Positions 803 to 34,985 of a stretch of 38,423 nt of DNA are shown here, piece after piece. The number at the start of each line of letters is the position of its first letter. The stretch's first letter is position 1. Source of the DNA: a virus; IMG/VR virus record IMGVR_UViG_3300025131_000146, positions 1-38,423 of that record; one strand, given 5' to 3'. Both the position numbers and the translations under genes were made by a program. The notes under the pieces are model-generated. The model was given only the letters and a program-made list of their open reading frames with translations. It ran no database searches and had not been told where the DNA came from.

Positions 803-1225
803 ATGATAGAAAGAGAGGGTGTTTGGATGCCATTAGCAGAGGGATATTGTAAAGAATATGATTTACATGTAAAAGAAGATATGTTGTTTGGAAAGATTGG
901 TGAGGACTTCACAAAAGATTTGTTTGAAGGAAACACCAAAATGGAAATAAAAACAGAAAGAGACATCTGGAAAACTACTGGGAATATTGCCATTGAAATT
1001 AGGTATAAAGGTAAGCCATCAGGCATTTCTACGACAAAATCAAGTGTTTGGATACATTTATTGTCTCATAAAGGGGTCATAGAGGGCGGATTCATACTTA
1101 AGGTAGACCAACTTAGGGGTAAGATAAAAAAGCTCCAAAAAAGCGGTAATTTAAAGATGGTCATGGGGGGAGACTTTAATGCAAGTCAGATGGTATTACT
1201 TCCAATTAAGGATTTATTTTCTTGA
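803..1225 (+). CDS. PD-(D/E)XK-type phage endonuclease (140 aa)
   Basis: The central segment carries GKIGEDF, then MEIKTERDIW, TTGNIAIE and KPSGISTTKSSVWIH. The E48-x-K50 pair in the EIK motif, an earlier Glu (E34) and the TGN...IE and SGI...W blocks match small phage nucleases of the PD-(D/E)XK superfamily, which cut or trim DNA in replication, recombination or host-DNA breakdown. ATG 803 is preferred because GGTGA at 794-798 is well placed. TTG 758 and ATG 767/770 lack a ribosome site. It is the last gene of the rightward arm and overlaps the oppositely transcribed giant gene by 12 nt. The substrate (Holliday junction, single-stranded end or other) cannot be told. Confidence 0.72.
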   Translation: MIEREGVWMPLAEGYCKEYDLHVKEDMLFGKIGEDFTKDLFEGNTKMEIKTERDIWKTTGNIAIEIRYKGKPSGISTTKSSVWIHLLSHKGVIEGGFILKVDQLRGKIKKLQKSGNLKMVMGGDFNASQMVLLPIKDLFS

Positions 1226-4200
1226 TTCTATAAAATCATCAAGAGCTTTTTTTATTCTTGGGTCAAGAATTGTTTTTCCATTTTTATCTGTTATAAATCC
1301 TAATTCTTTTAAGTTTGATTTTTTTATATTATGTAATTTTTGGACATAATCTTTATCTTTATAGTTCTTTCTTAACTTAAATCTTAAAGTATCTACAACA
1401 GTATTTCTCTTTACTTTATATTCGTCTACTCCTTTAAATACCTTTTTAACATAGATTAAAGGGTCTTTTGTTTTAATAATCCCTTTTTCCATTTGATTAT
1501 AAGCTCTTTTTGTTAAAAATAAAAGAAATTCTTCATCTAGAGATAAATTTGTAACTCTTCCATCTCTATCTGTTCCTATTGACAAAGGACATAGCTTGTT
1601 AAGCAAATCTTCGCATTGGATTAATGCTAGATTCTCTGCTTCTTTGTCTGTCTTTCCAGCCGCTTTATATCCTGTATAATGAACTTCATACTTTTCAATC
1701 ATTCTCTCTGTAATTTCTCCAATATTATCGCTTTCATTAAAAGATTTTGAAACTGCGAAATTATAAGGAGTGGCTATCCCTGGAGATTTTATATTAGCTT
1801 TTGTAGTTGGTGTTGATTGAAGAAATATTTTTTCAAAATTCTTTATATCTTCCTGAAGAATATTATAAGGGTGTTTAATGTTTGTATACATTTTAACAAC
1901 ATTCTTAACAAAATATTGTGTATTTAAAACCAAATCTGTTAAATTGTGCATAGGAAGTTTTTTATATAAAATTTGTTGTTGAAGAGGAGTTCCTTTTGAC
2001 ATTTTTAAACCAAGTTTACTAGCAGTTCCTTTTGCTATATCAAAGATTGAAGCCATTACTTCATATGCTTTTACATAAGGAACAAGTGGAACAAAATCTG
2101 AAGCTTGTGGCATTTCACCTTTAAAAATTTTTAAAGCAGGAGTAGCAAGAGAAAGCCATTCTCCTATGATTAAATATCTCAACATTATTTTCCAATGTTT
2201 ATCGTCAAGTTCTCCTTCATTGGCGGCTGTTCTTAGAAGCATAGCGAGTGTTACACGACCCCAACCAGTAAATCCAGCACCAGCTGTGGCAGTTCCTGCC
2301 AATTTTAAAAGAGATGGCCCAGCTTGTATTAAATTTTTATTCTTTTTATTCATTCTAATTATTTTCATCATATTGAAAACATGAGAAGCAGCCATTTTTT
2401 GAAACTGAAATGCTCCACCAGCCCATGGGTTTAAAAATATAGGATGTTGTAAAACTTCTGCTGTTGCGCCTTGAGAATTTATATGAGCCATTGTTATTAT
2501 TTTTTGATGAAGTTCATTAAGCTTTGAAATCTCATTAGCAATATCATATGCTGATGTTAATGTTTTACCTTCAAAAGTTACAATATCTGATTTTTGAGTG
2601 ATGTCAAATCTTTTTGCTGATACTCTATCGCCTAAATATTGACTTGCATCAAGGCTATTAAGACCATATCTTTGGGCTAAATATATCTCTTCATCATTTA
2701 AATCATAAATTTCAGTTGCTTTATTAATAACATTTATTAGCTCAATAGGAGAACCTTTTGCAATAGAAGAAGCAGGTAATTTATAATTTAAAATAGGAGA
2801 TTTTTGTAAAACATCAACCATCTTTGGAGAATCAACTAAAGCCATTAAAGCAGAAACGAGTCTTGTAAAAACTTCTGATTGTTGAAATCCACCTAGATTA
2901 AATAAAAAATCATTAATTTTTACGTTTGCTAAAGCTCCTTCTGTTTCTATAGCAGAAAGAGCTAAAGATATTAATCCTTTTCCTTTTGCATCAAGCCTTG
3001 TTTCAAAGTCTAATGCTCTTGCCATGTTAACTGCTAAATCTTTAGCTTGGTCACTCCATATATTTACATTCATAGTAGTTCCAAGTCCAGCATTTTTAAG
3101 AGCAGACGTATACCATGATAAGTAAGATTTATTTAAAAAATGCATAGTTTGAGCCACATATCCCAATGTCTTTTTTGGATAATAAGGCATATTTATATTC
3201 CTTATTCCAATTCTTGAATGAATCATTTGCTTGATATAGTCTGCAATTATTTTAGTTTGTTCGTTTGGAGCTTTTAAATGTAATTCTGCAACTAATTTAG
3301 GCATATTTTTAAAATTTCCAGGCAATCCTTTTAAATCAGCAAATTCAGGAAACCATCTTATTGTTGCAGATACTTTACCTTGACCTGCTACTCCTTTGTT
3401 TCCAATAGTATCATAAGATGTATCCCAAACTTGAACAGGTTTTCCTTCTATCAATAAAAATGGAGGTAAGTTTAATTTTCTTTCAAGAAGGTATCTTGCT
3501 TTTGTTTTAGAAGGAGAATTGTATTTCATTGATATAGCAAGAGTATTTAATATCTCTATTTTAGCAGCATCTTTTTCTGCTTCTATTTGTTCTAAGGTTG
3601 CGCCTTTACCATGTTTTTCATAAGCTCTATCGGTAGCAAATGGAATTATATTTTTATCAAGTTCTTTTTGTAAAGACATTGTAGTTAAATTTGCTTTTGC
3701 TATAAAATCAGAGTTTAATGATTTAGACATATAAAATGTTTTTTCTATCCATTTAATACCATGTTCTTTCATAAAAGTTTTATATTGCATTTCAGTCATA
3801 TTTGCTTTTAAACCTCTTATATAAGACTCTTTTATTCTATTTGTCATTCTATACCAAGCCCTTGCAACATAACTTTCAGGAGTATCTATTCTTAAAACAC
3901 CTTTTTTATCATAAATTTTATCCATAAACTTTTTTGCATCATTATAAATCTTCACAACATTTTTTTGTTCAGGATAAGTTTCTACAAATTTTTTAAGACC
4001 AAACCATTGGTCTTCTTGTAACCACCATAGATGTTTTTTTATTTTAGTAAATTTTCTTTTTCCAATATTGTATTTACCAGCAACTTGCCTTGGGTTAAAT
4101 GTTAATTTATTATCAGCTAAAGCACGAAAAGCTTCAGTTTCAAACTGAGTTAAATAATTCTGAACTTCATGTTCCCATACAACATGATTAAGAGCTCTGT

Positions 4201-7200
4201 GTGCTAAATCTTTAGCTCCTTTTATTCCATACTTATCTTCAAGAGTAGTCATAACAGCTTTAAATTGACCACCATGTATATTCGTCATTCTTGCAGCTTT
4301 TCCTACACTTATCTTACTAGCAAGTTCTGAAAATGTATCTCCATCTATCGGAGTCCCTCTCCAAACTCCAACTTCTCTTGCATCTTGATTTAAAGCCATT
4401 TCTGTTAAATATTCCTTTGCTTCATCTAAAGTAAGTGAAAATTTACTTGTTTTTCTAAATTTCAATCTTAATATATCTTTTCTTTCATCCATTGATATAT
4501 TAGCTCTATCTGCCAATGCATCAGCTTTATCTAATATTGATAGTATTTTTGATTTAATTTTCTTTTGTTCAATAACCTCTTGTTTTCCTACTAATATTTC
4601 TTTTGAAAATGCTATTAATTCTTCATATGTTGCTTCTTTTAGGTTAAATTCAGTAAAATTACTTATACTTGCTTTATCAGCATAATATAGAAGAAATTCT
4701 TCTTTATTTGTAACACTCATGCCAACACTTTGTCTGTTAAATTCTTTTATAATTGCTTTTCTATATTCTTTTAAAAATGTTTTAGATACCTTTGGAGGAT
4801 TAGAATCTGCTACTTTTTGAACAATTTGTTTGTCTGATTTTCCTTTAATATCCTCAATTGACAAACCTAATTTAGGAGGTTTTTTACTTAAAACTTTCCC
4901 AACAATTTTTCCTGCTACTGGAGTTTGAGGCTTAGAAGGAACTACAACTGGAATATTGCTTTTAGGTGGATTTAATATTGCATCAATTCTTTTATTAACC
5001 TTGTCTGTTACTTGCTTTGCTATTTCAAAGAAATCAGTAAGATTTTGTTGCTCAATATAAAATTTAGTTATTTTATCATCAGCCTTAGTTGCGTGCCCAG
5101 CAAGAATACCATACATTTGTTTTTCATCTATTAATACACTTCCTTGGACAGGTAATTGATAAGCGGCATCTGGTAATAATCCAGCTTGATTTTCAGCTAT
5201 TTGTTTAAGTTGTGATTTAAATTCTTTTGCTGTGGATTTTGTTCCAAGAGTAGACTGAAGAATTTTTGTTACTAAACCAGCATAATCAGGAAATATTTCT
5301 TTTTGCATCATTTGAAGTTCTTTTCCGTGATTAATTATTTTTAATGCTAAATCTTCAGGAATAGGTAATGCTCTTGGAGTACCTCTTTTTTTTCTTCCGC
5401 CGCCCAATTTTCTAGGTAAACGTAAATCTATATACCATGTTCCATCATCATGCTTAAAAATATCAGTTGGTTTAATAGCATTAATTTCTTGGTCTCTTAT
5501 AGGACTTTTATAAAAAAGGTCTAAAACAGTAGAAAGCCTTCCTTTATCATTTTTTAAAGCCTTTAAAGGTATTTTAGTTTCTTTACTAATTTTCTTTAAA
5601 TCTTTTATATCTTTTTCAGCAAGATTTTTAATATTGCTTAATTTTTTAATACTACTTGCTATATCTTTCATTTTATAAATATTTTGGAAAAAATCAACAA
5701 TTCCTACATTTTGTTTTTTATATATAGGTCTTAAATCATTAAAATCACTCGCAAAATCCATTATTCTTTTATCATTTTTATCATAAGGATTTTCAATAAT
5801 AGCACCCTTTTTTTCTAAAGTTTCAAAAAATCTAAAAAATGAACTTCTTTCATCATCACTTAAAGTAGGTGTATACTTTTTCTTTTTCTTATTAGCTATT
5901 CTTTCATTAAAATAATCTACAATATCATCTGTTGTAATTTCACTAAAACTATCTTTACCTGAATCAATTAATAATCTATTTATATTAAACTTTTTCATTT
6001 CAAGTAAAGTTTTCTCTGGTAATTGAGAAATAACCTTAATATCTATAACATCATTAATTCCTTCTATAATCCTATCTGGAATTATTCTGTTATTTTTTTT
6101 ATCTACAATATTTTCAATTCTTATTTGAAGAACATTATTTCCAATGCTTTCAGTTTTCCATGTTATAGGATTAACATCAGCTTCAAGCTCATCTATCCAT
6201 TGAACGTGCTGTGCTTCTGATATTTGTGTATCTAATTTTGCTGGTGTACCACTTTTTAACATTTTTTCTATTTTAGCTAATCTACTATCATCACCAACGC
6301 TGTTATTTTGAGAATTGCCAACTGGAATATTATTATTTTTTGCAAAAGAAACTTTCATTGCTCTTTTTAAGTCTATTAATTTATCTGCTTCTGATTTATT
6401 TAATGATAAAACTTCTCCATTAATAGGAAGTCCATTTTCATCTAGTAATATTACTTTTTCATATTTGGCAGCAGAAGAAGCTTTATTATTTTTATTTTTA
6501 ATTGAAGGCTGTTCATTCTCTCCAAATCCTTCAAGTTTTGTTCTATTTAAATAATCTCTTATTTCATCTAATTGTTCATTTTGAGATTTTGCCACATCTA
6601 TTAATAATTTTTTTTGCTTGTCATTAAGCTTAACGTTATTTTCAATTTCATATCTTGTAATATAAGCCTCTTGACCTTCATCTGAATTAAGATATGTATC
6701 TCTATATCCTTGATAAGCTGGTATAACAGAAGGAGCATATGCTTGCAAAAAGAATATATCATCATCTGTTGCTTTTCCATTATTAACTCCTATAACCTCA
6801 CCTTTATCATTTTTTATGGATATTCTATCTATTATTTCTAATGATTTATTTGCTATATCATAAATGGATTTTAATCCATCACCCATATCAACAGATTCGC
6901 TTAAATCAGTTATAGTTTTTTCAAAAAATTCATAAGGAACTTTACCTTTTAAATCAGCAGAAACATTATTTAAGCTTTCTGTTAATAATTTAGCTTGATT
7001 AGATTGAAGATTTACATTTGTTTTTTTATTATTTTCATAAGCTATATCTCCTTTTAAATCATTCTTAATATTTTTTAATACTTTAGGTAAGTTTATATTA
7101 TCTGGCAATGGTTCTGAAAATATTTTAGCATTTCTTTCCCATGGCATTTTAGGTCGAAATCCAATATTAGAAGTTAATTTTTCCCATAAATTAACAGATA

Positions 7201-8815
7201 CCTTAGCTTTACCTTTCATTAAATTAGCCAATTGTCCTTTATCAAGAGATTTAACCCAATCTTCAAAAGTAACATCTTTTTTACCTTTTCCAGCTGAAGC
7301 TTGTTGAGTTTCTATCCATTTCTTTCTTAAAATTTTTGTCTCTTCTTTATTTAGCCTTAAAGTTTTATAATTAACGTACTTTTTACCAAGTTTTGATTCT
7401 TCGAAAGCATATCTTTTTGCATTTCCTAAATTTCCAATCGATTGACTAGCACCAACAAGAACAAGAGAATATCCACCCATAACAGTTACATCAGCCCAAT
7501 ATTTACTAAAGTTTATATTTCCATTTTTATCAATGTATGTTTTTCTTCTTTCTTTATCCCATAGAAGAGGCATTGTTGTATATGTTATACCATGAGATGC
7601 ATATTTAGTAGGAGGACTAGCTACTGCATTTTTTACCATATTTATTTTACTTGGATTTTTTCTAACAAGACTACTTGTATATTTAAAAGCAGAATCAAAT
7701 ATATTATTTGTCCAACCAACAATGCTTCCAACTGCAACTCCTTCTGCATAATATTTACCCATATCAAGGCTCATATCCCATAGATTAACAGTTCCATCTT
7801 TTTTGTCTTTATATTTACCAAGACCAAACATTTGGTCATGATGAGACTGGACTGCTCCATGATAAGAGAATACCATACCATTTATTTGGCTAATAGTAAA
7901 CATTTGGTCAGCAGCTTTATATTTGTCAAAATTTTTAAATATAGTATTTTTAGCCATTAAACCTACTTTAGTATTAGGTAATGTTTTTGTAATAAACTCA
8001 GGAGTTCTTGATGCCATCCATTGAAAAATTTTGTTATTTTCAACTGCCTTTAATACTGTTGAACCTACTTTTGGATTAACTGCTTTCATTATATTTCCTG
8101 CTATATAAAATGAAGCAACGTCTGCTACTGATAAAGATAAAACTTGATTAACAAGATTTTCTCTAACTCCTGGGCTATATTGTTCCATTCCACCCATTTC
8201 AACAGGCATATCATCTATTTTATATTTATCTTCTCCATCATTTCTAGTTCTATAGGAAAGACCAGCAGTCGATTCATTTATTCGTCTTTGGAGGCTTTTT
8301 TTTCTTTCATCAGACATTGCATGCATAGCAATATCGCCTAATTGAATATTTCCTATTTTTGCAATATTATCACCCCAGTATTTATTTAATTCATCCCCAA
8401 ATTCAGTTAAAGATAATACTTTCCCAATCTGTCTACCTGTTGAAGTTGGAAGAATATCCCATATATTAAGATTAGGGTCTTTTTTATGCTCTTCTATTAT
8501 TTTTACTTTATCCGAATCTGATATTTGACTTACTAAATTTTGAACATTAGTATCTGAAAATTCAAAAGAATTTAAAGTATCAGGGGATGTATCTACGCTA
8601 AAAGCATCTGAATTGTAATCATAATTATGCTCATCTTCATCCCAAGATTCATACTCATAATCTGGATAGTATTCTTGTGCGAGTTTGTAGACTGAACTAT
8701 CTTGTTTTATAGTTGAAGTTATATCTGGAAATTCTTTTCTCATCCAATCTACTAAACGAGTTTTTTTATCTCCTTCTATATAAATATCTTTATTTTCGTT
8801 TTGAGTATTAGGCAT
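1214..8815 (-). CDS. Giant (2533 aa) virion/ejection-type protein with an embedded, degenerate tyrosine-recombinase domain
   Basis: This is the last gene of the late operon. Glycine/alanine-rich hydrophobic stretches lie near residues 230-250, 439-465, 2168-2197 and 2209-2231. The C-terminal third has a FLNPWAGGAFQFQKMAAS block (about 2126-2143) like the ends of phage polyvalent or ejected proteins. Residues 957-1013 look like an integrase core-binding domain (ITTDDIVDYFNERI ... RSSFFRFFETLEKKG ... ENPYDK). Residues 1095-1260 look like the catalytic domain: R1107 in SPIRDQEI, a lysine/arginine beta-hairpin at 1136-1148, GH at 1240-1241 and Y1253 in KFYIEQ. Box II HxxR is replaced by P1215-D-A-A1218, so DNA cleavage is unlikely. 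Size and position suggest a protein packaged in the head and injected. The start has only a weak site (AAGAGA). The reading frame is intact. Confidence 0.85.
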   Translation of the reverse strand: MPNTQNENKDIYIEGDKKTRLVDWMRKEFPDITSTIKQDSSVYKLAQEYYPDYEYESWDEDEHNYDYNSDAFSVDTSPDTLNSFEFSDTNVQNLVSQISDSDKVKIIEEHKKDPNLNIWDILPTSTGRQIGKVLSLTEFGDELNKYWGDNIAKIGNIQLGDIAMHAMSDERKKSLQRRINESTAGLSYRTRNDGEDKYKIDDMPVEMGGMEQYSPGVRENLVNQVLSLSVADVASFYIAGNIMKAVNPKVGSTVLKAVENNKIFQWMASRTPEFITKTLPNTKVGLMAKNTIFKNFDKYKAADQMFTISQINGMVFSYHGAVQSHHDQMFGLGKYKDKKDGTVNLWDMSLDMGKYYAEGVAVGSIVGWTNNIFDSAFKYTSSLVRKNPSKINMVKNAVASPPTKYASHGITYTTMPLLWDKERRKTYIDKNGNINFSKYWADVTVMGGYSLVLVGASQSIGNLGNAKRYAFEESKLGKKYVNYKTLRLNKEETKILRKKWIETQQASAGKGKKDVTFEDWVKSLDKGQLANLMKGKAKVSVNLWEKLTSNIGFRPKMPWERNAKIFSEPLPDNINLPKVLKNIKNDLKGDIAYENNKKTNVNLQSNQAKLLTESLNNVSADLKGKVPYEFFEKTITDLSESVDMGDGLKSIYDIANKSLEIIDRISIKNDKGEVIGVNNGKATDDDIFFLQAYAPSVIPAYQGYRDTYLNSDEGQEAYITRYEIENNVKLNDKQKKLLIDVAKSQNEQLDEIRDYLNRTKLEGFGENEQPSIKNKNNKASSAAKYEKVILLDENGLPINGEVLSLNKSEADKLIDLKRAMKVSFAKNNNIPVGNSQNNSVGDDSRLAKIEKMLKSGTPAKLDTQISEAQHVQWIDELEADVNPITWKTESIGNNVLQIRIENIVDKKNNRIIPDRIIEGINDVIDIKVISQLPEKTLLEMKKFNINRLLIDSGKDSFSEITTDDIVDYFNERIANKKKKKYTPTLSDDERSSFFRFFETLEKKGAIIENPYDKNDKRIMDFASDFNDLRPIYKKQNVGIVDFFQNIYKMKDIASSIKKLSNIKNLAEKDIKDLKKISKETKIPLKALKNDKGRLSTVLDLFYKSPIRDQEINAIKPTDIFKHDDGTWYIDLRLPRKLGGGRKKRGTPRALPIPEDLALKIINHGKELQMMQKEIFPDYAGLVTKILQSTLGTKSTAKEFKSQLKQIAENQAGLLPDAAYQLPVQGSVLIDEKQMYGILAGHATKADDKITKFYIEQQNLTDFFEIAKQVTDKVNKRIDAILNPPKSNIPVVVPSKPQTPVAGKIVGKVLSKKPPKLGLSIEDIKGKSDKQIVQKVADSNPPKVSKTFLKEYRKAIIKEFNRQSVGMSVTNKEEFLLYYADKASISNFTEFNLKEATYEELIAFSKEILVGKQEVIEQKKIKSKILSILDKADALADRANISMDERKDILRLKFRKTSKFSLTLDEAKEYLTEMALNQDAREVGVWRGTPIDGDTFSELASKISVGKAARMTNIHGGQFKAVMTTLEDKYGIKGAKDLAHRALNHVVWEHEVQNYLTQFETEAFRALADNKLTFNPRQVAGKYNIGKRKFTKIKKHLWWLQEDQWFGLKKFVETYPEQKNVVKIYNDAKKFMDKIYDKKGVLRIDTPESYVARAWYRMTNRIKESYIRGLKANMTEMQYKTFMKEHGIKWIEKTFYMSKSLNSDFIAKANLTTMSLQKELDKNIIPFATDRAYEKHGKGATLEQIEAEKDAAKIEILNTLAISMKYNSPSKTKARYLLERKLNLPPFLLIEGKPVQVWDTSYDTIGNKGVAGQGKVSATIRWFPEFADLKGLPGNFKNMPKLVAELHLKAPNEQTKIIADYIKQMIHSRIGIRNINMPYYPKKTLGYVAQTMHFLNKSYLSWYTSALKNAGLGTTMNVNIWSDQAKDLAVNMARALDFETRLDAKGKGLISLALSAIETEGALANVKINDFLFNLGGFQQSEVFTRLVSALMALVDSPKMVDVLQKSPILNYKLPASSIAKGSPIELINVINKATEIYDLNDEEIYLAQRYGLNSLDASQYLGDRVSAKRFDITQKSDIVTFEGKTLTSAYDIANEISKLNELHQKIITMAHINSQGATAEVLQHPIFLNPWAGGAFQFQKMAASHVFNMMKIIRMNKKNKNLIQAGPSLLKLAGTATAGAGFTGWGRVTLAMLLRTAANEGELDDKHWKIMLRYLIIGEWLSLATPALKIFKGEMPQASDFVPLVPYVKAYEVMASIFDIAKGTASKLGLKMSKGTPLQQQILYKKLPMHNLTDLVLNTQYFVKNVVKMYTNIKHPYNILQEDIKNFEKIFLQSTPTTKANIKSPGIATPYNFAVSKSFNESDNIGEITERMIEKYEVHYTGYKAAGKTDKEAENLALIQCEDLLNKLCPLSIGTDRDGRVTNLSLDEEFLLFLTKRAYNQMEKGIIKTKDPLIYVKKVFKGVDEYKVKRNTVVDTLRFKLRKNYKDKDYVQKLHNIKKSNLKELGFITDKNGKTILDPRIKKALDDFIESRK
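1221..1253 (+). terminator. Rightward intrinsic terminator inside the 3' end of the opposing gene
   Basis: CTTGAT (1221-1226) pairs with ATCAAG (1238-1243) around an 11-nt loop and is followed by AGC and seven T at 1247-1253. The stem includes the nuclease stop codon (1223-1225). On the other strand the same bases code for the last residues of the 2533-aa protein. The stem is only 6 bp and half AT, so efficiency is uncertain. Confidence 0.5.
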
Positions 8816-10115: not shown

Positions 10116-10574
10116 TTATCCATATCTTACATCCATTCCTGTTTGTACATAGGATTGGATTTGGTCTAAAATAGAACTACCTGCGTGTAATTGTTTTTCT
10201 CTTGCTGAACCAATAATAGGTGCAACATCTCTTCCATATGCATCAGTAATTTTCTTTTTATATTGTTTTGCTCCATAACTACCTGCAAATCCTCCCTGAG
10301 CTTGTTCTGATTTTTTACCTTTTAATGGATTTAATAAATTAGTTAAAGCACTTTGAGTCCCAGACTCCATTCCTGGTGCATATGTTGCAAATTTAGATGA
10401 TTTAATTAAAGATTCAGAAATCCCAGGAAACATAGATTCATCTAAATTTTCTATATCTATACCAAACTTCTCTGATATAGCTTGCATCCAATCAGTCGGC
10501 TGATAATCTGTTAAGGTATCAAGAGATGCTCCTTCACCAAAATAACTTTGTAAAATACTCTCTATTTCACCCAT
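10116..10574 (-). CDS. Hypothetical late protein, probably virion-associated (152 aa)
   Basis: It has an acidic N-terminal half (GEIESILQSYFGEGASL) and a Gly/Ala/Gln-rich centre (KGKKSEQAQGGFAGSYG) followed by a helical C-terminus. No catalytic motif or membrane segment is visible. The strong site GGAGGAAG precedes ATG 10574, and the gene lies 2 nt from its upstream neighbour and 9 nt from the downstream one. Being sandwiched among tail and ejection genes suggests a minor virion or internal core component. It is unrecognised by sequence. Confidence 0.7.
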   Translation of the reverse strand: MGEIESILQSYFGEGASLDTLTDYQPTDWMQAISEKFGIDIENLDESMFPGISESLIKSSKFATYAPGMESGTQSALTNLLNPLKGKKSEQAQGGFAGSYGAKQYKKKITDAYGRDVAPIIGSAREKQLHAGSSILDQIQSYVQTGMDVRYG

Positions 10575-10576
10575 TA

Positions 10577-11107
10577 TTATCTTCCTCCAAAGGATGATAA
10601 TAATTTTTGAATAGCTGCAAGCTTTTCAAACTTACCTCCTTCTTCTTCAAAATCCATTCCTTTTATATTTTCTATTAAAGATTTAAGAGGAGTTCCTTTT
10701 TTGAACATACCACTAAACATATCTCCCATTACATCACCTGTCATTATATCCCCAAGAATATTTTGACCAAATTCTAATGGACTTACTTGGACATCTTTCA
10801 TTTGTTCTAAAAAATCTCCAGATTGCCTTCCTAAGAAAGTCTTGCCAAATTTTCCATGAATACCTTTAGCATCTTTATATCCTTTTCTTCTATCTATCAA
10901 GTCTTTAATTGAACCAATCCCAGGTATCAAATTAAGAATACTAAATGGTTTATCTGATGCTTGTTTTATTAATTCTTCTAAGTTTTCACGCATATCACCT
11001 TTTTTAATGCCTGTTGCTATATTTCCAGATTGAATTTGACCTCTAGAGCCGAATGCCGATTTAATTCTTTCAGATTCTATATTTGCTAATTGATATGGAT
11101 TTTCCAT
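10577..11107 (-). CDS. Hypothetical late protein with glycine-rich amphipathic segments (176 aa)
   Basis: The protein has a hydrophobic Gly/Pro stretch (ILNLIPGIGSIKDLIDRR) and a C-terminal part with repeated Gly-Asp-Met-Phe motifs (TGDVMGDMFSGMFKKGTPL). These might insert into membranes, as ejected proteins do, but no classical TM helix is clear. AAGGAG precedes ATG 11107. It is the first of four consecutive genes ending with the giant protein, so a shared ejection or core role is plausible. No family is recognised. Confidence 0.7.
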   Translation of the reverse strand: MENPYQLANIESERIKSAFGSRGQIQSGNIATGIKKGDMRENLEELIKQASDKPFSILNLIPGIGSIKDLIDRRKGYKDAKGIHGKFGKTFLGRQSGDFLEQMKDVQVSPLEFGQNILGDIMTGDVMGDMFSGMFKKGTPLKSLIENIKGMDFEEEGGKFEKLAAIQKLLSSFGGR

Positions 11108-18216: not shown

Positions 18217-19005
18217 TTATTTATTACCATCTAAATATTTACCCCATAAAGAGGTTTTCCCATTAATTATTTCTACTACTTCTACTTTAAAATCTCCACC
18301 TTTAAACCAATCTACTATAGCAAATCCATGATTCCAATTATGAAGATTACCTCTTAACCATTCATTAGCTTCTGAGGACATATCCTTTAAACATCCCATA
18401 CTCCAAGCACTTATTGTTCCACCCCATTTTGTATCTGTGAATCTTTGGAAATCATGAGTATGTCCATATATAACACTTTGTCCACCTTTTTCTAAATGTT
18501 TTTTTGCGTGATGAATAGGAGTATATTTACCATGTATAAAATTAAGCTTTCCTATTTTTAATGGTTTATTAGATAAATATCTAAGATACTTATATCCTCT
18601 TTCTTTAATTTTTAATGCATTCTTAGTCATATATTGCGGTAAATAAGGATGTCTTACTACAAAGTTATCCAACCATAATTCGTGATTACCTTGTATAAAA
18701 TGTCTTTTTTTACATTTAGCTTTATCTAACGATGCATCTATTATATCCATACCTTCATTAACAAGAGCAATTTCTTTATCAAGCATTGGTATTAAAACTT
18801 CTAATGGTGGTTTTTCTTTATCTTTCCAATAATGCTTACTAAATAATTCCCATTCTCCTGTATCACCTAAATCAATATAAGTATCAGGTTTTATCATTTC
18901 AATTGCTTGACATACTACATTAATTGCTGCATCATCATGCAAAGGAAAATGCTTATCAGGAGTTACTATAGCTCTACTAATAATACCTTTATCTAACTTC
19001 GCCAT
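18217..19005 (-). CDS. Calcineurin-like metallophosphoesterase (262 aa)
   Basis: The metal-binding blocks appear in the proper order: D17-K-H19, G47-D48, G-N107-H108-E109, H158 (NFIHGKY) and G181-H182-T183-H184. These define the two-metal phosphoesterase fold, which hydrolyses phosphodiesters or phosphomonoesters. Phage members are of varied or unknown substrate. AGAGG precedes ATG 19005. It is unusual to see an enzyme between head-completion genes and the membrane/lysis cluster. It may process nucleotides, nucleic acid or a host signal late in infection. There is no signal peptide, so cytoplasmic action is likely. Confidence 0.88.
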   Translation of the reverse strand: MAKLDKGIISRAIVTPDKHFPLHDDAAINVVCQAIEMIKPDTYIDLGDTGEWELFSKHYWKDKEKPPLEVLIPMLDKEIALVNEGMDIIDASLDKAKCKKRHFIQGNHELWLDNFVVRHPYLPQYMTKNALKIKERGYKYLRYLSNKPLKIGKLNFIHGKYTPIHHAKKHLEKGGQSVIYGHTHDFQRFTDTKWGGTISAWSMGCLKDMSSEANEWLRGNLHNWNHGFAIVDWFKGGDFKVEVVEIINGKTSLWGKYLDGNK

Positions 19006-20770: not shown

Positions 20771-21124
20771 TTAGTCTTCACTTACAAATGTATCACTATT
20801 AGCCAAAGTTTGTGCTTCTGACTTAGTTAATACACTAAAATTAGGATATGCTTTACTTGCTCCTAATGCTATAAGCTCTGATAATACTCCATCTTTTGCT
20901 GACCATTCACCTTTGATAATACAATATGCTTTATCGTGTGAATATCTTGGAGCTCCTACTTTACCTGCAAATATTATATCGTGCCAAGTAGGTGCAGATA
21001 CATAAGTAATATTATCATCCTCATCTACTGATTCTACTATTGGATATAGTTCTTTTATTTTGGTACCAACAGCACTATCATATGCACTGCTTGGTAGACA
21101 AAAATACATTTCATAATGTGCCAT
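20771..21124 (-). CDS. Hypothetical late protein (117 aa)
   Basis: A mixed alpha/beta protein starting MAHYEMYFCLPSSAYDSAVG and ending SEAQTLANSDTFVSED, with no membrane segment or catalytic motif. AAAGGAG lies upstream of the LamG gene that precedes it, while this ATG overlaps that gene's stop (TAATG). Position between the adhesin and adaptor genes suggests a minor virion or assembly factor. Not recognised. Confidence 0.65.
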   Translation of the reverse strand: MAHYEMYFCLPSSAYDSAVGTKIKELYPIVESVDEDDNITYVSAPTWHDIIFAGKVGAPRYSHDKAYCIIKGEWSAKDGVLSELIALGASKAYPNFSVLTKSEAQTLANSDTFVSED

Positions 21125-24036
21125 TATCTGTGACTCCTTTTTCCTGCGTTAAAGTTTCTTGTTATTTCTGCTAATGTTAATGTTTTGCTATATACGCATA
21201 CATCATCTATTTCTCCAACAAATTTTCTTCCACTTGCTTTTTCTCCACCTATCCACATAGAATTATCTTCCATGCCACTGGTTGGACTACCAGTTTGAGT
21301 TCCAGCATTAGTTTGAAGAGATACTGCATTATCTTCATTACCTACATAACACAATGCTCTATTTGCATCTGTATCAGCATCATGGTCTAAGGCAAATGCT
21401 ACAAAAGTCCATTTATCAGTTGAAAATACACTAGAATTAGTTTGATGTCTTGCACTACCACTAAATCCGTCAATTTCATATGTCCATCTGAATCTTCCAT
21501 TACCAGCGACTTGAGCTATAAACTCAGCAGCACCATCGACAACTACATTGACTAATGCATCAGTATTAGAATAATCAGGAGATTTAAACCAAAGAGTTAC
21601 AGTCATTGCTTCTAATTGAGCTTCAGTTAATGGACTTCCAGAAACTTTTGTTTGAGCTCCAATATTTAAATTTGAACCACCTCCTACATCTGGATAATAA
21701 TTCAAACTATTAGTAACCCTTTGTCTATTCATTAGAAATCCTTGAGAATCTCTTGTAGCGTCTGCTCCTGCTGTAATTAACATTATTTCTGTTAAACTTG
21801 TTGGAGTACCATCTCTATTATTAGCTGTTAAATCTTGCCAAGTTGCAAGTCCATTATTTCTCCAATAACCTTGAAGAGCTGTTCGGTTAGAATGATTATA
21901 AGCATCGAAAGCTTTACCATCATTATATAGTTCATTTATTTCTGTTTGAGATAATTCTGTTCCCCATATAGATACTTCATTTATAGTTCCATTAGCATAA
22001 TTACTATCACCTAAATTTGCTCCTATTGTAACAGCTCCACTTTTATTTTCCATTGCTACATAACTACCATTATCTGTAACTGCAAGTGTTTTAGATTCTC
22101 CGTTTATATATATTTTTATTCCATTAGGATGCTCTGTTGCATCGTAAGTAGATACTACATGTAACCATTGTCCTTCAAATGAGGTTAATGCTGTATCATA
22201 CTGTCCAATAAGATATACACTTGCACTCTGGTCATATAATTTAAGATAAAGTTTATCACTACCATCAGTAAGAAATACCCATTCTCTATGACTACTAGAA
22301 AACTTACCTATCACTGGAAATAAAGTAGCATCATTCATATTTATCCATGCAGATATGCTAAATGCCGAATCCTCACTACCATCTCCAAAACTAAAATCAT
22401 TATGGTCGGCTATTTGAACATTATCAGCTACTCCATCAAACCAAGCCAATTGATTATAAGATTGTAAAGCTGTTTGTGGTATTTGAAGTTGTTGGTCTGC
22501 ATCTGTCCAGCCTGTTGCTGTACCTACTTCTTTAATAGATACATTATCTATTGACCCTACAACATTTGAATCTGCGTTTATATATAAATAACCATTACCT
22601 TCGCATGTTTGTGTAACAGTATGTGTAGCAACAGAAGTTACTGGAGTACTATAACTACTACCACTACCAACTCTTACTGCAAATCCTCCACCAGATGTAT
22701 AAGCTGTTATATCAAAAGATATTATGTATTGTCTACCTATTGTTAATCCAGCATTTTGATTAATATTATTACTTGAAGTACCATCAGCTGTTGCAACACC
22801 ACTACCTATTGACCAATTACTATTTTTATTCCAATCACTATCAGCGCTAAAACTACCATTAGTAACTAACTCATCACCATGAAATACAGTTGTTGCATGA
22901 TTTTTGTTGTTTACAGGCTTTATTGACAAATTATCAAATGTGATGTCGTTTGCTGCGGAACCATCTCCACGAACTACTTTTAAGTCTGCATGAGTTGCTG
23001 TAAAGGTTCCAGTAAATGTTCCAGTAGTATCAGTAGTGCCTACAAAAAAAGGAGCACTTCCACTTTGCATTTTTATAAAGCCATCTGCTGATGTTATAAC
23101 GGTAATTGAATATTTATATGTAATGCCTATTGTTAAAATAGATTGTTTAATAGTCGTAGCAGTTCCATCATTAGTAACAAGCCTACACTGTTCATTTGTA
23201 ATTTCCCAATAATGAGTTCCATCGTGAGTGCTTTCATTTGTCCACCCAGCTAAGTTACTTCCTCCACTTGTAGTAGTAACTGAAGCATCACTAAAATCTC
23301 CATTAGTTACTGTATCGTCCCCCAACCCTGTATTTGAAGCATCAAGTATATATGATTGTTGCCCTCTATGTCCATCATTCATTGGATACCATATCTTAAG
23401 ATTAGAGTTTGTTAGTGATGTACCACCTCTATTTAAAGCTAATTGTTCTGGATTATTGTAATCGTATAATACATCGTCTGCTGTCCATGCTGCATCCCAT
23501 ACTTGAACATCAGATAGCATCCCAGTAAAATAACTACTACCACCTGAACCTTTTCTATTTCCAATATAAAAATTAGAAGTATATGAATCTAATCCATCAG
23601 CGATAGAAGAACCACTTCCAACTAATACTCCATTAAGATATAATTTTACTGCTAAACTATCTATAACCATCGTTACTCTATACCAAGTATTATCATTAAT
23701 TGTAGTGGCATAAAATGATTCATCTCCTCCGCCTACATCATCAAATATTAATATAGTATCACTATTTATTTTTAAACCTACAGCATTACTTGTACTTTGA
23801 TAAAAATTAAATGGGTATTGACTTGTAGCTGCATCTGTAGATTTTACCCAACAAGCAACTGTAACATCATTAGTTATTCCTAAAGTAGCAGCTGTAACTC
23901 CTGCATCTAAATAATCTGTAACCCCATCAAACTCTAATCCTCTACCTGAATATATTTGTCCATGATTATTATTACCAGAGGTATCTAATGCTCTAGCTTT
24001 TGTTGGTTTTTGAATGGTTTGTATAGTAGCAGCCAT
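21124..24036 (-). CDS. Multidomain LamG / carbohydrate-binding virion adhesin (970 aa)
   Basis: Three concanavalin A-like (LamG) modules are visible: about 17-215 (GLEFDGVTDYLDAG ... VTVACWVKS ... NTWYRVTMVID ... KLYLNGVLVGSG), 533-729 (LAWFDGVADNVQIA ... FSISAWINM ... YINGESKTL) and 783-970 (EAMTVTLWFKSPDYS ... DKWTFVAFALD). Between the first two lie two jelly-roll CBM-like modules, at about 244-374 and 383-505, each starting VTNGDFS or VTNGSFS and ending DN-x-S-I-K. Such proteins bind glycans and probably decorate the head or form fibres. No hydrolase motif is seen. It is coupled to the 241-aa LamG gene (TAATG). Confidence 0.85.
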   Translation of the reverse strand: MAATIQTIQKPTKARALDTSGNNNHGQIYSGRGLEFDGVTDYLDAGVTAATLGITNDVTVACWVKSTDAATSQYPFNFYQSTSNAVGLKINSDTILIFDDVGGGDESFYATTINDNTWYRVTMVIDSLAVKLYLNGVLVGSGSSIADGLDSYTSNFYIGNRKGSGGSSYFTGMLSDVQVWDAAWTADDVLYDYNNPEQLALNRGGTSLTNSNLKIWYPMNDGHRGQQSYILDASNTGLGDDTVTNGDFSDASVTTTSGGSNLAGWTNESTHDGTHYWEITNEQCRLVTNDGTATTIKQSILTIGITYKYSITVITSADGFIKMQSGSAPFFVGTTDTTGTFTGTFTATHADLKVVRGDGSAANDITFDNLSIKPVNNKNHATTVFHGDELVTNGSFSADSDWNKNSNWSIGSGVATADGTSSNNINQNAGLTIGRQYIISFDITAYTSGGGFAVRVGSGSSYSTPVTSVATHTVTQTCEGNGYLYINADSNVVGSIDNVSIKEVGTATGWTDADQQLQIPQTALQSYNQLAWFDGVADNVQIADHNDFSFGDGSEDSAFSISAWINMNDATLFPVIGKFSSSHREWVFLTDGSDKLYLKLYDQSASVYLIGQYDTALTSFEGQWLHVVSTYDATEHPNGIKIYINGESKTLAVTDNGSYVAMENKSGAVTIGANLGDSNYANGTINEVSIWGTELSQTEINELYNDGKAFDAYNHSNRTALQGYWRNNGLATWQDLTANNRDGTPTSLTEIMLITAGADATRDSQGFLMNRQRVTNSLNYYPDVGGGSNLNIGAQTKVSGSPLTEAQLEAMTVTLWFKSPDYSNTDALVNVVVDGAAEFIAQVAGNGRFRWTYEIDGFSGSARHQTNSSVFSTDKWTFVAFALDHDADTDANRALCYVGNEDNAVSLQTNAGTQTGSPTSGMEDNSMWIGGEKASGRKFVGEIDDVCVYSKTLTLAEITRNFNAGKRSHR

Positions 24037-24761
24037 TATGTTAATGTCCCATTATTTGAACCATGTGAATCATTTGCATCTGCACTAAGATTCCACCATG
24101 ATACTAAATTTGTTTTTTCACTATCTGATAAACCTGCATAGTTTTTATTCATAATAGATTTGATTTGTGCTTGAGTTAAAACTTCAGACCAATATCCTAC
24201 ATTAGATATATATCCATTCATCTCAAGAGAAGTAGGTGCACTTGCATAATACGCTCCAATTATAAAATTTTCAGTAGATACAGTATAATTAGCATAAGAA
24301 TCTGAATCTTCTAAAACTCCATCTATATAACCTTTTTGAGTACTACCATCATAAGTTAGAGCCACATGATACCATCTATTTGCCTCTAATTTAGTATTTG
24401 AAGTGCTTCCCTGTAAATCTGTAGTATATCCAGTCCTCCATTCTACTTCATTATTACTTTTTTTTGTCATGCTAAACCCTGACCTATTATTTGTATCAGC
24501 ATTATCAATAGAGCTTACAATCCCAGTATAAACATCAAGAACAGGGAACCAAACCCAAGCTGATACTGTAAAACTAGCTGTTCTTAATGATGCATCATCC
24601 CCACAATCTATATATTCACTACTACCATCAAAATAAGCAGCACCATCACTTATAGGTACAACGCTAGCTGCATTATAATTATGTTTTAATACGAGATTAT
24701 CAGTTACGATTCCAGGTGTAACTATACCACTTTTTGTTAAACTAGAGCCTAATCCTAACAT
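24036..24761 (-). CDS. Single-domain LamG virion protein (241 aa)
   Basis: The LamG core runs through AYFDGSSEYIDCGDDASL, ASFTVSAWVWF, NRWYHVALTYDGSTQKGYID and NFIIGAYY, then a C-terminal extension with EKTNLVSWWNLSAD. It resembles the LamG domains of the 970-aa neighbour and may have arisen by duplication. The gene likely encodes a glycan-binding decoration or fibre component. The ATG follows the previous stop by 3 nt, with AGG upstream. Confidence 0.8.
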   Translation of the reverse strand: MLGLGSSLTKSGIVTPGIVTDNLVLKHNYNAASVVPISDGAAYFDGSSEYIDCGDDASLRTASFTVSAWVWFPVLDVYTGIVSSIDNADTNNRSGFSMTKKSNNEVEWRTGYTTDLQGSTSNTKLEANRWYHVALTYDGSTQKGYIDGVLEDSDSYANYTVSTENFIIGAYYASAPTSLEMNGYISNVGYWSEVLTQAQIKSIMNKNYAGLSDSEKTNLVSWWNLSADANDSHGSNNGTLT

Positions 24762-33216: not shown

Positions 33217-33461
33217 TAAGTGTTTCCTTGCATTGAATCTTCGCCGTAAATATACATAATATTATCTTTATTATCAAATTCACTCTTACATCTTGGACAA
33301 GCCCACCCAATTATCTCGTGGTCAGCACTCTCCATGTCAAATAACCCAATCCTTTTAGAATAATACTTGTTATAGTACAATTCTCTCTCGCAAATAGGAC
33401 AAGGGTCTTTAATCTTCGTCTTTTTCTTTGTGTGCGATAAGCTTTGTATCTGCTTTTCCAC
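33216..33461 (-). CDS. Zinc-ribbon mini-protein starting at GTG inside terS (81 aa)
   Basis: Two cysteine knuckles, PCPICERELYY and WACPRCKSEF, make a four-Cys zinc ribbon. GTG 33461 is the only plausible start; a strong GGAGG lies 6 nt upstream, inside the terS coding region. The first 17 codons overlap terS by 53 nt in another frame. Single zinc ribbons in phage genomes may bind nucleic acid or mediate protein contacts. Nothing specific can be said of its partner, but neighbours are packaging and lysis genes. Confidence 0.65.
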   Translation of the reverse strand: MEKQIQSLSHTKKKTKIKDPCPICERELYYNKYYSKRIGLFDMESADHEIIGWACPRCKSEFDNKDNIMYIYGEDSMQGNT

Positions 33462-34176
33462 TTAGAGCCTCCATTTGTTCAGGTGTAAATCCTTGAAATA
33501 CTGTTAATTGCTCTTGTTTCTTCTCTGTTTCAAATAATCCAGACATTTTAGACAACGCTTCTAATGAACGAAGCTTATCAGTGTCTCTATCCGATAAATC
33601 AGCGATTAATTTATACTTTTGAACAATCCATTCAGGTGAAACACCCTCATCAGCTAATATTTTCTTTACTTCCTCTTTAACCATAGTTCTAACTTTCTCT
33701 TTTTTTAATAAAACATTCGTTTTCTTCTTAATATAGTTTTCATCTTTTGCCTTTGGATACGCTTTCTTATACGCTGAAACCGCACCCTCACCTGCTGCAA
33801 CGTATTGAGCAAATAGAAATTCACGATTATTTAACTTTCTTTCTTTTGCCCTCTCATAAATGGCTTTATAGTTACCAGAGAATGAATAGATGTTTTCCGC
33901 AACTCCATGCTCACCGAGTATTTGATGAGTCTTTTGTTCAATGATGAATGAACCACATACAGTCAAAACAACATTCCTTGGCGATTTATAGCCAGGATGC
34001 TTTAATGCACTACGTTTAATGATTTGAATAACATAATCATCATCAGTATACACCCAATCTCCTGTTACTCCCTCTCTCCAGTTACCAACAATCTTAACTC
34101 CAGGATTAAATGCCCTAAATTCAATATCATCATCATATAAATAATTCTCTACGCCTTTTATAGTTTTAATATCCAT
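33409..34176 (-). CDS. terS: Terminase small subunit-like protein with N-terminal extension (255 aa)
   Basis: From about residue 115 it has the TerS helix-turn-helix pattern: NREFLFAQYVAAGEGAVSAY, KKAYPKA, then LLKKEKVRTMVKEEVKKIL and an oligomerisation-type helical region ending near LTVFQGFTPEQME. The first 100 or so residues (GDWVYTDDDYVIQIIKRSAL and so on) are an additional domain not usual for TerS. TerS recognises the packaging start and stimulates TerL. AAGGATT precedes ATG 34176. TerL is separated by five to six small genes, not directly adjacent. Confidence 0.75.
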   Translation of the reverse strand: MDIKTIKGVENYLYDDDIEFRAFNPGVKIVGNWREGVTGDWVYTDDDYVIQIIKRSALKHPGYKSPRNVVLTVCGSFIIEQKTHQILGEHGVAENIYSFSGNYKAIYERAKERKLNNREFLFAQYVAAGEGAVSAYKKAYPKAKDENYIKKKTNVLLKKEKVRTMVKEEVKKILADEGVSPEWIVQKYKLIADLSDRDTDKLRSLEALSKMSGLFETEKKQEQLTVFQGFTPEQMEALSGKADTKLIAHKEKDED

Positions 34177-34178
34177 AA

Positions 34179-34985
34179 TTAATCCTTAATACCCCAAGAT
34201 TTTCTTAGCCATTTATCTTCTTTCTCTTTATTTCCTATTTTTTTCCAAAGATTATACATTGCACTATTAAATGTTTTTTCTGAATCTTCTTTTATTAACT
34301 TTAAAAGTAAAGAAGCATGCCCACCATATTTTTCTTTTTCATCTGGTATTTCAGAATATCTTTCTAAATTTTCTTTCCATGGTTTTAATCTTGGTGTATA
34401 TTTAGGATAATCTTCTTTCATAGCATCAACTAAAGATTTTGCTAACGTTGGTTGATATTTAGAATGAGCATCATGCTCCATTGTTCCTTCAATATTATAT
34501 ACATCCTCTCCACTAGCTCTACGTTCCTCACCAGCAGCTATACTTAAAAATTCTCTTATTTCCTCTGGTTTACTATATTGTATTGAATGAGAAATCTCTG
34601 CTAAAAAATCACTCAAAGGATTTTTAGTACCACCAAAATACTTACCGCTTATATGAAGAGTGTCTGGCTCAGTTCTTGGGATAAATGATGATATAAACTT
34701 ATCTAAAGTTGAATTTTCTTCTATTAACCCAAATAGATTTGGATATTCTTTTTTTTCTTCACTTCTGATAAAATTAGCTCTTATTGGCTTTATATAAGGC
34801 TGCTCCTGTTGCCATATGTCCAAGTCATCGTGAGATTGAATGTATGGCATTCCACCTGCTAAAAATGCAGCTCTAAGTATCTTAGTTGATTTATCATCCT
34901 CTTCCAATTGAGCCCTATCAATCATATCATAAAATGTACTATCAGCTGGATTTATATATTCAGTTTTTTTAGATTTATTAGACAT
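34179..34985 (-). CDS. First late-operon protein; possible metalloprotease-like, unknown (268 aa)
   Basis: Soluble, with segments TLHISGKYFGGTKN, DFLAEISHSIQYSKPEE and EGTMEHDAHSKYQPTLAKSL. The E-I-S-H and E-H-D-A-H pieces lie about 45 residues apart and look like metal-ligand clusters in zincin-like proteins, although a standard HExxH is absent. Could process scaffold, capsid or host wall, or not be an enzyme. It lacks a Shine-Dalgarno site: the leader before ATG 34985 is almost all A and T, so translation may be of a short or leaderless mRNA. Confidence 0.65.
   Translation of the reverse strand: MSNKSKKTEYINPADSTFYDMIDRAQLEEDDKSTKILRAAFLAGGMPYIQSHDDLDIWQQEQPYIKPIRANFIRSEEKKEYPNLFGLIEENSTLDKFISSFIPRTEPDTLHISGKYFGGTKNPLSDFLAEISHSIQYSKPEEIREFLSIAAGEERRASGEDVYNIEGTMEHDAHSKYQPTLAKSLVDAMKEDYPKYTPRLKPWKENLERYSEIPDEKEKYGGHASLLLKLIKEDSEKTFNSAMYNLWKKIGNKEKEDKWLRKSWGIKD

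Follow-up and report, generated by a model that had tools for sequence, protein, structure and literature searches.

Cargo known to be injected by phages includes polymerases, ADP-ribosyltransferases and anti-restriction proteins. Polyvalent proteins are phage effectors that are packaged and injected with the DNA and that are accompanied by processing zincins (PMC5512222). N4 vRNAP, P1 DdrB and the Bcep22-like DarB giants are large late proteins of this type, and their genes close the virion operon. In podovirus JC1, the gene of the 4,515-aa protein gp69 lies close to the end of the virion module, and mass spectrometry of purified virions detected the protein (PMC9144972). The main text of the paper that defined polyvalent proteins does not mention an integrase or recombinase domain (PMC5512222), and we found no described case of a recombinase module in such a giant in the open-access literature. 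The tyrosine recombinases provide a second point of comparison. Cre, lambda Int, P2 Int, Brujita Int and XerH combine a core-binding domain with the catalytic fold, type IB topoisomerases carry K-x-x-R at box II, and the SPbeta-type phage repressors MrpR/YopR and SroF have the recombinase fold although their active site is not intact. MrpR represents a recombinase fold that turned into a pure DNA binder (PMC10516654). Here, we describe a giant late phage protein in which a module of this fold is embedded.

The stretch of DNA analyzed here (the window) comprises positions 1 to 38,423 of the 38.4-kb record IMGVR_UViG_3300025131_000146 and derives from an uncultured, probably marine, tailed virus. 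Its head and packaging module consists of TerS, TerL, a P22-type portal and a major head protein, and an endolysin and virion structural proteins are also encoded. The TerS-like protein (33409-34176, minus strand) matched its PHROG with the C-terminal half only and has an extra N-terminal domain. The 268-aa ORF adjoining the terminase genes (34179-34985, minus strand) contains the stretch FLAEISHSIQ...GTMEHDAH, which by eye resembles a degenerate metallopeptidase. Two neighboring ORFs of 970 and 241 aa (21124-24761, minus strand) share the PHROG virion structural families phrog_8510 and phrog_3545 and, by eye, LamG-like repeats, and a metallophosphoesterase gene (18217-19005, minus strand; phrog_221, E value of 1.5e-24) lies within the late operon. 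TerL had more than 400 relatives in IMG/VR, and a host search with TerL among 84,980 genomes returned no relative.

The last gene of the late operon, downstream of tail-type genes, is an ORF of 2533 aa (1214-8815, minus strand), and all residues quoted for it in the original prediction were found at the numbers given. An identical giant is encoded on a second IMG/VR contig (L002), and the giants of long relative contigs measure approximately 2100 to 2800 aa, partial ORFs being shorter. Searches with tblastn against 50,697 phage records, using the window protein, its group B and group C relatives (defined below) and the short giants as queries, retrieved no relatives, and the recombinase domain alone gave only chance matches. 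A sequence search of the PDB was likewise without a match. The backbone outside the module matched no known family, LPD38 and other polyvalent domains were searched for and not found, and the recombinase module was the sole domain identified in the window giant. With the full-length protein, a Pfam scan gave no match; matches appeared only when the domain segment was cut out. The giant is probably a virion protein that is ejected, and the phages encoding it form a large, uncultured, podovirus-like clade; as a giant of the late operon, it is of the type typical for ejected proteins, as had been predicted. We infer this from gene order and from analogy, since the backbone belongs to no known family; its carriage in the head, put forward in the original prediction, is likewise an inference. 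Gene position and architecture resemble those of JC1 gp69.

Residues ~925 to 1265 of the giant constitute a tyrosine-recombinase domain with core-binding and catalytic parts. The window segment matched the PHROG integrase family phrog_1 with an E value of 5.3e-6, and relatives matched phrog_1 (L151, 2.6e-7) and phrog_216 (L153, 1.2e-5). Core-binding Pfam families matched the segments of relatives below the cut-off, and the window module also stayed below the curated cut-off of PF00589. When six group A proteins (see below) were combined into a profile, hhalign aligned it to 12 phage integrases over 252 columns with a probability of 97.1 and an E value of 5.8e-11. The score of 84 for the domain compared with at most approximately 22 for non-overlapping parts of the giant and at most 15.5 for column shuffles. 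An AlphaFold2 model of the module, built from 10 sequences, had a mean pLDDT of 72, with values mostly between 80 and 90 in the catalytic part. Cre, Xer and integrases led the PDB matches of this model in Foldseek (best E value of 1e-3, probability of up to 1.0), and VIA-align returned Brujita Int with a Z value of 9.3 and Cre with a Z value of 8.6 over 240 residues, followed by P2, HP1 and lambda Int, topoisomerase IB and the repressors SroF and YopR. Free-standing integrases were the top named matches in a library of viral models. As these Z values are modest, it is the concordance between sequence profile, fold and conserved residues that carries the case. By sequence and structure, the module belongs to the tyrosine recombinase superfamily in fold and descent, as the original prediction had proposed for residues 957 to 1260. 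The domain lies there, but its start is nearer to residue 920: the core-binding (SAM-like) subdomain spans residues ~920 to 1020 (5756..6058, minus strand), as placed by PHROG and Pfam matches, modeled helices and hhalign, and the catalytic-type subdomain spans residues ~1075 to 1275 (4991..5593, minus strand), as placed by the model, its matches to Cre, Xer, Int and TopoIB, and hhalign.

The module was present in all 20 distinct full or near-full giants covering the region, boxes II and III being hard to place in L155 and L156. We sorted the giants into group A (the window, L150 to L153 and L171), group B (L154 to L157 and L169) and group C (L158, L160, L163, L166, L168, L178, L179, L181 and L183). 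In two close pairs, the module was under purifying selection, with dN/dS values of 0.23 (L151/L171) and 0.35 (L166/L181). Two giants of approximately 1330 aa (L188:1477-5469 and L189:9646-13632) share the N-terminal region with the others and contain neither the recombinase module nor HExxH; they may be an ancestral or a reduced form. An HExxH motif (e.g., DTLPHEVSHHV), a candidate zincin, follows directly after the module in group C and in L155 to L157 and L169, whereas the window, the rest of group A and L154 have none. In these relatives, a metallopeptidase-like motif thus stands beside the effector module as it does in polyvalent proteins. The window protein differs from polyvalent proteins in lacking HExxH, the zincin being common but not universal there, and in having no known LPD domain. 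Among 21 clade contigs, all incomplete, there was no ordinary integrase with a PF00589 match above the cut-off, which argues against a role in lysogeny. Of the two weak PF00589 matches, one fell within the module, and the other, probably due to chance, fell in a different part of a giant; an integrase elsewhere in the genome is possible, the contigs being incomplete.

Next to the fold, the active-site positions are conserved. R1107 and E1110 of box I (RxxE; 5486..5497), the hairpin lysine K1142 (5390..5392), H1241 of the box III GH (5093..5095) and the nucleophile position Y1253 (5057..5059; all minus strand) were invariant in a five-member group A alignment with approximately 25% identity. 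The box I pair was also invariant in the A5 alignment (10 sequences), in which K1142 was conserved to at least 90%. These residues agree with the original prediction that Arg I, Lys, His and Tyr remain. The prediction had also named in advance two outcomes that would count against it, an unrelated fold and a lack of conservation of R1107 and Y1253; both tests were run, and both favored it. Of the residues defining a catalytic tyrosine recombinase, Arg I, the hairpin Lys, His/Trp III and Tyr are all present in the window, and box II (H/K)xxR with its Arg II is absent. Its place is taken by K1197-E-F-K1200 (5216..5227, minus strand), with Lys at both the His II and the Arg II positions; it was located by the aligned columns of relatives and by the start of a helix in the model. 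The earlier placement of box II at P1215 to A1218 did not hold: this stretch belongs to a lineage-specific insertion (residues 1214 to 1229; 5129..5176, minus strand) that is missing in all group A relatives and is modeled as a beta-hairpin. It forms two strands (313-317 and 321-325 in the model), while K1197-E-F-K1200 opens helix 292-306. Counting back from His to box II without a gap, the basis of that placement, fails in the relatives too. The hhalign alignment itself puts the integrase box II near the insertion; we prefer the register given by the insertion-free relatives.

In group A relatives, the box II columns read KAYK, KAFK, KDYK and KALR (family form KxPhi[K/R]), and elsewhere they read KAFR (L154), FDLR (L157) and YDLR (L169). 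Lys replaces Arg II in the window and in L150 to L152; L153, L154, L157, L169 and every member of group C retain the Arg, so that, in this alignment, Arg II is lost in the window and not in the family. The canonical HxxR is gone from the window as had been predicted, but "degenerate" does not describe the family as a whole. Judged by these residues, the window module is probably crippled, and many relatives probably have a competent one. With phage tyrosine recombinases it shares Arg I, Glu, Lys, His III and Tyr, in addition to the core-binding and catalytic fold; it differs from them in being embedded in a 2533-aa late protein, in having KxxK instead of HxxR, in the permuted order of some relatives (see below) and in family scores that are all weak. 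The first-position Lys of box II, and the complete KxxR of L153 and L154, are shared with type IB topoisomerases, which the module also matches in fold. However, the module has an integrase-like core-binding domain, and with KxxK the window lacks the Arg of KxxR, so that its likeness to type IB topoisomerases is one of fold only.

Group C and L154 differ from the other members in the order of the motifs: the core-binding part, Lys hairpin, box II, GH and Tyr are followed by a box I-type segment, which lies ~80 to 110 residues past the Tyr (TGPRLNEI in L160). In the 10 permuted sequences, only five columns were invariant: both named residues of RxxE (Arg and Glu), Arg II, the Tyr and one Lys of the core-binding part. 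The region ahead of the relocated box I matched integrases with a probability of 89 and an E value of 2.2e-6. When 54 segments were compared with the box I region of integrases, the three that cover the relocated box I came first; their absolute scores were weak. Relocating the box I segment within the profile gave an hhalign score of 47 instead of 38. Because one of 22 control inserts scored 47.3, this test is only suggestive of a permutation. AlphaFold2 modeled the relocated box I part of group C with pLDDT values of ~85 to 95. The best matches of this model were recombinases and were weak (Z values of at most 6.7, high rmsd), which would be expected when sequence-order aligners meet a permuted fold and is not proof of one. 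In a tree built from the C-terminal backbone, two changes are needed to explain the permuted order, L154 standing among members with the standard order; therefore, the module has moved between backbones, was permuted twice or has reverted. Taking these lines together, we consider a circular permutation of the catalytic domain in group C and L154 likely. More tentatively, and with some doubt, these modules could be naturally permuted, active tyrosine recombinases or topoisomerases that are carried in the virion and injected with the genome.

We propose, with a probability of roughly 0.55, that the giant is an ejected virion protein of the polyvalent type that carries a DNA strand-handling module. 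A complete module with the recombinase/type IB topoisomerase fold would be embedded mid-protein as cargo, and the giant would most likely enter the host together with the DNA. Inside the host, the module would clamp phage (or host) DNA. In most relatives, which retain Arg I, Lys, Arg II and Tyr, a phosphotyrosyl nick would probably be made and resealed in order to handle the incoming genome, by joining or circularizing its ends or by relieving torsion. In the lineage of the window, DNA binding is the probable function, with weak cleavage at most, because Arg II is Lys.

The fold could instead have been kept for DNA binding without catalysis, so as to condense the genome, protect its ends or act as a repressor after entry. 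The replacement of the box II Arg by Lys in the window and in L150 to L152, the loss of GH in several family members and the appearance of SroF and YopR among the structural matches are in line with this explanation, and MrpR retains K and Y yet does not recombine (PMC10516654). However, MrpR has lost Arg I, whereas no member of groups A and C departs from Arg I, Glu and Tyr, and most relatives retain Arg II, a pattern that binding alone does not need. MrpR/YopR and SroF, which share with the window an active site that is not intact, are moreover free-standing regulators, while the window module sits within a late giant. We consider a purely DNA-binding role less likely for the family as a whole. 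The original prediction of a DNA-binding or structural role is likely to apply to the lineage of the window, and only there, since most relatives keep Arg II.

A late enzyme that is not ejected and acts in the producing cell, in concatemer or dimer resolution or in packaging, would fit the late operon position and the conserved active site. This explanation is improbable: the module lies inside a structural-looking protein of 2100 to 2800 aa instead of being a free-standing enzyme, and the architecture is like that of injected polyvalent proteins. A functionless remnant of a captured integrase gene, as the missing canonical HxxR and the insertion of the window might suggest, is strongly disfavored and very improbable given the module in all 20 informative relatives, the low dN/dS values and active-site columns that are the best conserved of the module.

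DNA target sites were not apparent in the window: its inverted repeats, considered as recombination sites, were no more numerous than in shuffled sequence. At a gene junction (10573-10604) lies one inverted repeat, whose 14-nt arms contain one mismatch and are separated by 4 nt.

If the ejected protein indeed carries this module, a recombinase/topoisomerase fold would be a new class of injected cargo and would hint at how a virus that lacks an ordinary integrase manages its DNA during the first minutes of infection. A natural circular permutation with a conserved active site, if true, would be a rare experiment of nature in a much-used enzyme family. These results suggest that the particle may deliver a DNA-handling machine together with the genome.
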